This document shows, one piece after another, positions 25,237 to 27,662 of a stretch of 64,000 nucleotides of DNA. The notes under the pieces were generated by a model, which was given only the letters and a program-made list of their open reading frames with translations, did not search any database and had not been told where the DNA came from. The DNA is from Halopiger aswanensis (GTDB taxonomy: Archaea > Halobacteriota > Halobacteria > Halobacteriales > Natrialbaceae). Each line of letters begins with the position of its first letter. Position 1 is the stretch's first letter. Position numbers and translations under genes: made by a program. Location: the NCBI RefSeq assembly GCF_003610195.1, contig NZ_RAPO01000001.1:930001-994000 (forward strand). The letters are read 5' to 3'.

Positions 25237-26934
25237 ATGAACGTAGCACAGACGTTAGTTCCGGCTCGCGCTCGCCGGAGCTATACGGCGAAACTCGGCG
25301 CGATCTTCGCGCTGGTGATCGGGGTCACGTTCGCCTTCGGCGGGGTGGCGTACCTCGAGGTAACGGCGGCGCTCGAGGCCGGCGATGCGGCCGCTGTCGG
25401 CGAGGCGGCGACGTCGGGGATTCTCGGGTTGCTCGTCCTGACGGTGATCAATCTCGGCCTCGTCGCGGCGACGGTCGGGGGGAACACGGCAGCGGCACTG
25501 TCCTCGCTGTCCACTCGGGCGACGCGCATGGGCGAGGGGGAACTCGACGTCGATCTCTCGACGCGCCGGGAGGACGAGATCGGCGACCTTTACGACTCGT
25601 TCGACGAGATGCGAACCTCGCTGCGGGAGTCGCTCGAGGAGACCGAGGCGGCGAAGGAGGAAGCCGAACGCGAGCGTGAACGTGCTGAGGAAGCCCGCGA
25701 ACAGGCGGAGGAGGCACAGGCGGAAGCCGAACGCGAGCGCGAACGACTCGCCGACGTCAACGCCGAACTCGAGGCCGAGGCCGAACGTTTCGGCGAGGTG
25801 ATGGCCCGCTGCGCCGACGGCGACCTGACCCAGCGCCTCGAAGCCGAAGCCGACGGCGAGACCGAGGCGATGGAATCGATCGCGACCTCGTTCAACGAGA
25901 TGATGGACGGGATCGAGTCGCTGGTCGGTCGCATTCAGGGCTTCGCGACGGACGTCTCGGACGCGAGCCGGGACGTGCGTGCGAACGCCGAATCCGTAAT
26001 GGACGCCAGCGAGGACGTCAGCGACACCATCGCGGAGATCTCGCAGGGGTCGGACACCCAGACCGAGAAGATCCGCGAGATCGCGGCGGAGATGGACGAC
26101 ATCTCCGCGACGACCGAGGAGATGGCCGCCAGCGCCGCCCAGGTCGCCGCGACCTCCCACGAGGCGGCCCAGGCCAGCGAGAACGGCCTCGAGACCGCCG
26201 AGGCGGCCATCGAGGCGATGAACGAGGTCGAATCACAGACCGACGCCTCGGTCGCGGAGATCGAGACGCTCCACGAGGAGATCCAGGAGATCGGCGAGAT
26301 CACGGAGATCATCGCCGACATCGCCGAGCAGACGAACCTGCTCGCGCTCAACGCCTCGATCGAGGCGGCCCACGCCAACGACGACGGCGACGGGTTCGCC
26401 GTCGTCGCGAGCGAGGTCAAGAGCCTCGCCGAGGAGACCAAGGAGGCGACGACCGAGATCGAGGATTCGATCGATCGAATCCAGGAACAGACCCAGATGA
26501 CCGTCGAGGACATCCGCGAGACGAGCGACCGCATCTCCAACGGCGTCGAGACCGTCGAGGAGACGGTCGACTCCCTCGAGGTGATCGTCGAGTCCGTCGA
26601 GGAGGCCAACACCGGCATCCAGCAGATCAACGAGTCGACGGACACGCAAGCCGAGTCGACCGAGCAGGTCGCGAGCATGATCGATGACGTGGCCGAGATC
26701 TCCGAGACGACCGCTGCGGAGGCCAACGACGTCGCGAACGCGGCCCAGTCGCAGTCGACCGCCGCCCGCGAGGTCTTCGGCCGGGTCGAGGACCTCTCCG
26801 ACGGCGCCGAGACGCTGCTCGAGCTCCTGCAGGACACGCAGCTCTCGCACACGAGCGCGAACGCCGGTGGCGGTTCCGGGGCCGGTCGCGGTGCCGGCGT
26901 CGGTGCGGCCCCGAATCCGGGTGAGGGCGTATGA
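25237..26934 (+). CDS. htrII: sensory rhodopsin II transducer HtrII
   Basis: A 565-residue methyl-accepting transducer. Two membrane helices (about 18-41 and 58-82) flank a short extracellular loop. TM2 contains [12 protein letters not shown]; Asn72 matches the Asn that hydrogen-bonds SRII Tyr199 in the Natronomonas pair. Two HAMP domains follow (R[19 protein letters not shown] and [20 protein letters not shown]) joined by a Glu/Arg coiled coil containing a 21-residue tandem duplication. The signalling hairpin is [20 protein letters not shown] and the methylation helices flank it. The stop overlaps the sopII ATG (ATGA at 26931-26934). It relays blue-light avoidance to CheA. The start at 25237 gives the expected N-terminus. 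Confidence 0.97.
25659..25745 (+). repeat. 63-bp tandem duplication inside the HtrII linker
   Basis: Within htrII the sequence at 25659-25682 recurs at 25722-25745 with a single mismatch over 24 bases (GAGCG(T/C)GAACG region), an offset of exactly 63 bases or 21 residues, that is three heptads. The encoded segments are [11 protein letters not shown] and [11 protein letters not shown]. The in-frame offset keeps the coiled-coil phase between the two HAMP domains. Confidence 0.9.
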
Positions 26935-27662
26935 TCGAGCCGACGCTCGTCTTCTGGCTCGGGGCGATCGGAATGGCTGCAGGGACGATCGCGTTCGCCT
27001 GGGGCAGACAGTCCGCGGCCGCCGAGTCCCGGCAGTACTACACGGTACTCGGCGCGATCAGTCTGATCGCCACGCTCGCCTACGCTGCGATGGCGATGGG
27101 CTACGGCTGGCTCTCGGTCGACGGCCGAACGGTCTTCGCGCCGCGGTACATCGACTGGATCCTGACGACGCCGCTGTTGCTGCTCTATCTCGGCTGGCTC
27201 GCCGACGTCAACCGGAATCGACTCGCGCTCGTCGCCGGCGTCAACACGGTCGTCATGGTCGGCGGCTTCGGGGCGGCGCTGCTGACCGGCACGGTCCGGT
27301 TCGCGCTGTTCGGCCTTGCCGCGGTCGCGTACGTCGGTCTGCTGTACCTGATCCTGCAACCGATGACCACCCGCGCAAGTGAACAGGCCGACGCCATCCA
27401 GTCGCTGTTCACCGGCCTTCGGAACCTCACGGTCATCCTCTGGTCCGTCTATCCGGTGATCTGGCTGCTCGGTACTGCCGGCTTCGGCCTGCTGACCCTC
27501 CCGGTCGACGTCATGCTCACGACCTACCTCGATCTGCTCACCAAGGTCGGGTTCGGCCTGATCGCGCTCAACGCCGGCGCCGCGCTCGAGGCCGAGTACG
27601 GCGACGGAGCGTCGTTCGGCGACGCGCAGGCGAGCGACGAGGTGGCCGCGTCGGCGTCGTAA
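26931..27662 (+). CDS. sopII: sensory rhodopsin II (phoborhodopsin)
   Basis: A 243-residue seven-helix retinal protein that senses blue light for phototaxis via HtrII. The residues known from Natronomonas SRII are at the same positions: Arg72, Asp75 counterion ([12 protein letters not shown]), Tyr174, Asp193, Tyr199 (HtrII contact), Asp201 and Schiff-base Lys205 in [16 protein letters not shown]. The proton-donor position of bacteriorhodopsin is Tyr86, not a carboxylate, so the photocycle should be slow as for a sensor rather than a pump. It is co-transcribed with htrII through an ATGA overlap. Confidence 0.97.

Follow-up and report, generated by a model that had tools for sequence, protein, structure and literature searches.

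The window, a 64,000-nucleotide stretch of the Halopiger aswanensis genome, carries on its + strand the gene htrII (25237..26934), whose open reading frame encodes a 565-amino-acid transducer of sensory rhodopsin II (SRII). The product contains an Htr2 transmembrane domain (PF17909, residues 21-81; 25297..25479, +), a HAMP domain, HAMP1 (PF00672, residues 83-131; 25483..25629, +), and an MCP signalling domain (PF00015, MCPsignal, residues 321-488; 26197..26700, +), all three scoring over their cut-offs and together making up the domain set of HtrII. Its closest PDB match is 2f95_B, an SRII transducer (E=4.7e-52). The gene is adjoined by that of SRII itself (243 amino acids; 26931..27662, +; Bac_rhodopsin, PF01036, E=9.3e-55), which is 87% identical to the rhodopsin of a congener. 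The two genes overlap by the four bases ATGA at 26931-26934, which suggests translational coupling. An earlier note on this DNA had named the gene HtrII, and the Pfam domains, the 2f95_B match and the adjoining SRII gene all bear this out. A promoter and terminator scan with bacterial consensus sequences found nothing.

A second HAMP domain, HAMP2 (25768..25935, +, bounds approximate), was recognised with a home-made HAMP2 profile; when this segment was scanned alone, the Pfam HAMP model gave two stretches. The HAMP2 connector DGETEAMES (25852-25878) has two residues more than in five aligned relatives. As a measure of the linker we took the distance from the D of the DExG motif in HAMP1 (residue 113) to the G of the GD motif in HAMP2 (residue 195), which is 82 residues in the window protein (25573..25821, +), i.e. 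5 modulo 7. The two HAMPs are not concatenated without a spacer, the shortest class described below having 36 residues between the same anchors. Within the measured stretch lie a variable heptad spacer (25636..25749, +, bounds approximate), delimited by the phase composition of 125 proteins and having the consensus EEAExAR with Ala at both core phases, and a fixed four-residue stutter, placed by its core residues Leu178 and Ala182 at positions -17 and -13 relative to the GD of HAMP2 (25768..25782, +).

The search for SRII genes covered 125 genomes from the family and 392 from the order, and 100 neighbourhoods, a subset of the matches, were fetched. The family yielded fifteen pharaonis-type SRII genes (59-100% identity). 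Fourteen of the HtrII proteins encoded beside them form one clade (bootstrap 100, FastTree support 0.945), with the window protein and those of Natrialba swarupiae, Salinadaptatus halalkaliphilus, Natrarchaeobius chitinivorans and Halobiforma haloterrestris among its members, and all fourteen have a DExG-to-GD distance of 82 residues. The fifteenth (G020), with 75 residues, branches outside this clade.

The spacer of the window gene contains the 24-base sequence GGAAGCCGAACGCGAGCGTGAACG at 25659..25682 and again, with 23 of 24 bases identical and in frame, at 25722..25745 (both +). The earlier note had described an exact 63-bp duplication; the 24-base repeat with one mismatch at an offset of 63 stands, whereas the ungapped similarity around it extends to 57 nt at 77% identity (25626-25682 versus 25689-25745). 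Among the 72 linkers of length 75 or more that were measured, identity at lag 63 is highest in the window (20/21), followed by the congener (19/21). Shuffling the codon order of the linker never attained 23/24 at lags of 21-105 nt (0/400), while synonymous shuffles equalled the observed match for the same pair in 205 of 5000 cases and attained 23/24 for the best pair of the linker in 20 of 400. The DNA match therefore mostly reflects the repeated peptide EAERERER combined with codon bias; the real feature is for the most part this peptide, present twice, 21 residues apart, and the DNA match is secondary.

Among the 14 clade members, a pair of ERERER sites separated by 21 residues is present only in the window protein and its congener; the 24-base identity at offset 63 is 23 in the window, 22 in the congener and 9-17 in the other twelve. 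The second of the two sites carries ERERER in 12 of the 14 members, so the first copy is taken to be the one derived in the genus of the window. The repeat is best read as a local likeness between spacer heptads that arose in the genus with the length unchanged. Local gene conversion between two spacer heptads in the ancestor of the genus could have produced it, and the presence of the repeat in both genus members, with one mismatch between the copies in the window and two in the congener, is in keeping with such an event. Codon bias acting on a convergent peptide, however, yields an equal match in 4-5% of shuffles, three relatives have their second ERERER at other heptads (14 residues away in L003, 28 in L004 and L027), and the genus is represented by two species only; we consider gene conversion a possible but somewhat doubtful origin.

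Among the haloarchaeal transducers that we collected, the linker length changes almost exclusively in steps of seven residues. In an initial listing of 51 SRII-linked transducers, obtained by a pattern reading that gave no transducer at 9 of 65 loci and left L125 unread, the distance was 47 (3 proteins), 54 (1), 61 (10), 68 (3), 75 (18) or 82 (16), thus 5 modulo 7 in every case (51/51). The pattern reading was later replaced by profiles of HAMP1 and HAMP2, neither of which spans the middle of the linker. Open reading frames that matched a single profile were left out, and the result was a set of 140 distinct proteins, SRII-linked ones together with paralogues from nine genomes (loci were obtained for 30 of 46 and 30 of 39 of the paralogue matches listed). 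In this set 125 proteins are at 5 modulo 7. The other 15 comprise nine with a middle HAMP motif (79-107, all 2 modulo 7), one at 78 (L195) in which another middle HAMP-like stretch was judged by eye, four at 36 and one at 50.

A prediction was then written for a holdout made up of the loci of a further paralogue search, obtained for 29 of 29 matches, and of 40 haloarchaeal matches chosen among those listed in another search. It was written after these searches and before the sequences were read, some of the genomes concerned having already given an SRII-linked transducer. Once 4 duplicates and 17 haloarchaeal open reading frames with a single profile or with both misordered had been set aside, 38 new proteins remained. 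All 28 without a middle HAMP are at 5 modulo 7 (61, 75 and 82), and all 10 with one are at 2 modulo 7. Altogether, 178 distinct haloarchaeal transducers were measured; 158 have no middle HAMP, and 153 of these have a linker of 47, 54, 61, 68, 75 or 82 residues, lengths that differ by multiples of seven. The remaining five double-HAMP proteins, at 36 or 50, are 1 modulo 7. The class with a middle, divergent HAMP (L176, L177, L178, L250, L284 and others, with a motif like FDDPVL...VPGxFG) spans 79-107 residues and is at 2 modulo 7 in 19 of 19 cases. Twenty regions from methanogens and from further lineages of the phylum outside the haloarchaea contained no protein in which the two profiles occur in order: 17 had a single profile or both misordered, and 3 had none. 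The 5 modulo 7 rule is accordingly stated for haloarchaea.

Changes in length were counted by parsimony on a protein tree that leaves out the linker middle and includes 136 of the 140 proteins (4 were too short) and none of the 38 holdout proteins. Over the 126 double-HAMP tips, i.e. with the middle-HAMP proteins omitted (nine recognised by motif and L195 by eye), the minimum is 31 length changes and 2 phase changes; over all 136 tips it is 39 and 7. All four figures are lower bounds, from a tree some nodes of which are weak. Changes in linker length thus keep the heptad phase, as the earlier note had proposed. Were the changes independent and each a multiple of seven with p=1/7, 29 or more such changes among 31 would have a probability of about 1e-22. 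The C-terminal tail of the same proteins, from signalling tip to stop, served as a control: it shows 67 changes over 114 tips, 56 of them altering the phase, and its length takes 58 values among 140 of the proteins at 5 modulo 7. As this control kept proteins at 5 modulo 7 only, the linker has 0 phase changes in it by construction, and that figure does not enter the comparison. The HAMP connectors, with 3 and 1 changes only, are almost free of indels and too quiet for a control, so that the comparison is with the unstructured tail.

Such a pattern could in principle come from the supply of mutations, with no selection on phase, if the spacer DNA consisted of 21-nt repeats in which slippage or unequal recombination yields steps of 21 nt. 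L061 (82 residues) differs from L055 (75 residues), of the same genus, by one extra 21-nt unit that is identical to its neighbouring unit at 19 of 21 positions; this duplication is a young event. The best identity between adjacent 21-nt units lies between 14 and 19 of 21 in 101 of the 153 linkers, which makes the DNA somewhat repetitive. However, an identity of 18 or 19 positions in 21 at this lag is reached by only 13 of the 153 (11 being too short), so that a good repeat is seldom present, and against 2 phase changes in at least 31 in the spacer stand 56 in 67 in the tail of the same genes. Slippage may be a source of 21-nt steps, but it cannot alone account for the missing other steps, and we regard an explanation by mutation alone as unlikely.

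The register of the helix can be followed from the core residues. After HAMP1, hydrophobic residues occupy phases 2 and 5 (positions 2, 5, 9, 12 and 16) in 98-100% of the 125 proteins. The heptad core pattern continues through the linker with one local exception: phase 6 at position 20 is hydrophobic in 125/125 and phase 5 at position 19 nearly always polar, so that no plain heptad repeat exists just after HAMP1. In the middle of the spacer, with the consensus EEAExAR, Ala is found at phases 2 and 5 in 86% and 72% of the proteins, respectively; core positions close to the spacer end are frequently Glu or Arg. Before HAMP2 the core lies at phases 6 and 2, with Tyr, Phe or Ile at -10 and Met, Leu or Ile at -6. 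Position -17 (phase 2) is Leu, Val, Ile or Met and position -13 (phase 6) is Ala in all 125 proteins; in the holdout -13 is Ala in 28/28, and -17 is Leu in 26/28 and Tyr in 2/28. Judged by these core residues, the stretch between -17 and -13 adds four residues to the heptad pattern. This stutter occupies one fixed site before HAMP2, and it is upstream of it that EEAExAR heptads are gained and lost. In the proteins of the 36 and 50 classes, phases 2 and 5 can be read from HAMP1 into HAMP2 in one unbroken register without a stutter, which favours the coiled-coil reading proposed below. Some of their core positions, however, carry unfavourable residues (Gln, Thr, His, Gly and Arg), and these five stutter-free double-HAMP proteins presumably work; both points count against that reading.

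AlphaFold predicts one helix at residues 107-193, with pLDDT block means of 88-95 for residues 120-189, the model being of a monomer, built from 6 sequences with a pTM of 0.29, and uninformative on the dimer. A spacer very rich in Glu, Arg and Ala, with runs of ERERER, could also form a single-chain charged helix of the ER/K type, a stiff rod for which phase is irrelevant. The presence of Ala at both core phases in mid-spacer, lengths quantised in heptads and HAMPs on both flanks, which are dimeric in known structures, make such a rod very improbable.

The Natronomonas linker is, as the earlier note had proposed, 21 residues shorter, the DExG-to-GD distance being 61 in the Natronomonas-type L083. 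Across HAMP1 and the beginning of the linker, 72 residues of L083 agree with chain 2f95_B of the N. pharaonis transducer, except at the last one. The view that the repeat added these 21 residues in the lineage of the window did not survive, since the 13 other clade members also have 82 residues and 12 of the 14 are without the repeat, and a single three-heptad duplication gives way to a step of one heptad, all of 47, 54, 61, 68, 75 and 82 being found. In ordered parsimony the clade of the window is at 82 throughout, the base of the pharaonis-type HtrII clade is at 68 or 75, and Natronomonas (61) has shortened. The longer linker is therefore ancestral to the genus and to the 14-member clade, but not to the deeper clade, and the gap of 21 residues is most plausibly the sum of heptad gains in one lineage and losses in the other, the nodes between the clade and Natronomonas being weak (bootstrap 23-72). 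A recent 63-bp tandem duplication that lengthened the window HtrII, suggested by the 23/24 match at offset 63, the top lag-63 identity and the excess over Natronomonas, was rejected as extremely improbable in view of the equal length of relatives without the repeat, a likeness of some 57 nt at 77% rather than an exact 63, and synonymous shuffles that equal the match in 4% of cases.

Beneath HAMP2 the length hardly varies. The distance from GD to the signalling tip, read in the 143 of the 153 proteins at 5 modulo 7 that have a recognisable tip, is 169 residues in 130, 170 or 171 in 10 and 120 in 3. Compensation of the spacer length by the stalk was ruled out for the measured half by this near constancy. 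The three proteins at 120 (L036, L037 and L040) have a linker of 54, a GD-to-tip distance seven heptads shorter than 169 and an unusual tip, KTNILAVNARIESSR; they adjoin rhodopsins about 40% identical to the SRII of the window and are perhaps a separate length class. In the genome of the window, the double-HAMP linkers found measure 82 residues in five proteins, HtrII among them, 75 in one and 61 in two, beside three middle-HAMP proteins of 100, 107 and 107. That all receptors of one genome share one linker length, as the first four paralogues with 82 had suggested, was discarded when 75 and 61 were found. The proteins of this genome (L013-L019 and L175-L178) have mixed linkers and a nearly equal stalk beneath the last HAMP. 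Unequal linkers on nearly equal stalks imply receptors at different distances from the membrane, unless the unmeasured part compensates.

We propose that the helix between HAMP1 and HAMP2 in HtrII is a dimeric, Ala-rich coiled coil with a variable number of whole heptads and one fixed stutter next to HAMP2, a reading to which we assign a probability of roughly 0.8. The sequences show a length quantised in sevens, conserved core phases, a conserved stutter position and a stalk of nearly constant length beneath HAMP2; from these features we infer the dimeric coil, selection on the phase between the HAMPs and a role for the stutter. The repeat in the window is one view of the conserved seven-residue rule and not a recent insertion. 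The coiled coil would couple both HAMPs through angular phase. Whole heptads would be phase-neutral and would come and go, probably as units of 21 nt are duplicated or deleted, and selection would remove indels of other sizes. Such selection would act on angular phase because a heptad, about 10 Å along the axis, shifts HAMP2 axially and hardly turns it, whereas an indel of another size would rotate HAMP2 and disrupt or invert the relay. Owing to the conserved stutter, HAMP1 and HAMP2 may pack in opposite senses, as in the dynamic-bundle model, an effect that we take from published models.

We think it rather probable that a phase lock operates, in which the axial distance between HAMP1 and HAMP2 varies and the angular phase and the single stutter hardly ever change. 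By helix geometry, the axial range is about 52 Å in the family (five heptads, 47 to 82) and about 31 Å within one cell. How HAMPs pass on a signal, whether by rotation, by a piston or by opposite packing dynamics, has long been disputed; a phase lock, if true, would speak against a relay that depends on absolute distance and for one by rotation or packing phase. The natural length series, with six rungs, about thirty changes and one phase in 153 of 158 proteins, supplies ready constructs that separate axial distance from rotation, and the stutter-free class (36 and 50) is its natural contrast. It would also be puzzling how such unequal rods fit into one array, since nearly identical stalks with different spacers coexist in one genome.

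Among known systems, chemoreceptors reportedly fall into length classes counted in heptads and located in the signalling hairpin (Alexander and Zhulin). Variation by whole heptads is common to both; in the haloarchaeal transducers it is the spacer on the membrane side that varies, whereas the measured half of the hairpin is nearly constant. The literature searched, as far as its text was available, yielded no between-species comparison of inter-HAMP linker lengths; a 2011 work of Gushchin and co-workers on the inter-HAMP regions of phototactic transducers may include some length comparison. For N. pharaonis NpHtrII, one source describes an alpha-helical linker between HAMP1 (83-135) and HAMP2 (157-210) (PMC5292967), and a simulation study describes a coiled coil with a phase stutter between the two (PMC4651059). 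The inter-HAMP helix of NpSRII/NpHtrII thus belongs to the same family and is likewise helical, and differs from that of the window in being 21 residues shorter. Linkers stepped in heptads are also described for the phytochrome-linked diguanylate cyclases (PadC), where natural lengths fall into heptad classes in a coiled coil (54% multiples of seven, 38% at -4; PMC9587094), and for LOV receptors, the natural linkers of which differ by multiples of seven in a coiled coil and the engineered kinase YF1 of which has, by experiment, an output that depends on linker length in heptads (PMC6798134). Heptad steps are shared with both, whereas the haloarchaeal linkers lie between two HAMPs, keep one phase in 153 of 158 proteins and have a fixed stutter. 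In the poly-HAMP of Aer2, HAMP units follow one another serially on one helix, either immediately or after a short helical linker (PMC3570549). The haloarchaeal transducers likewise have HAMPs in series, but their spacer extends up to five heptads beyond its 47-residue form.
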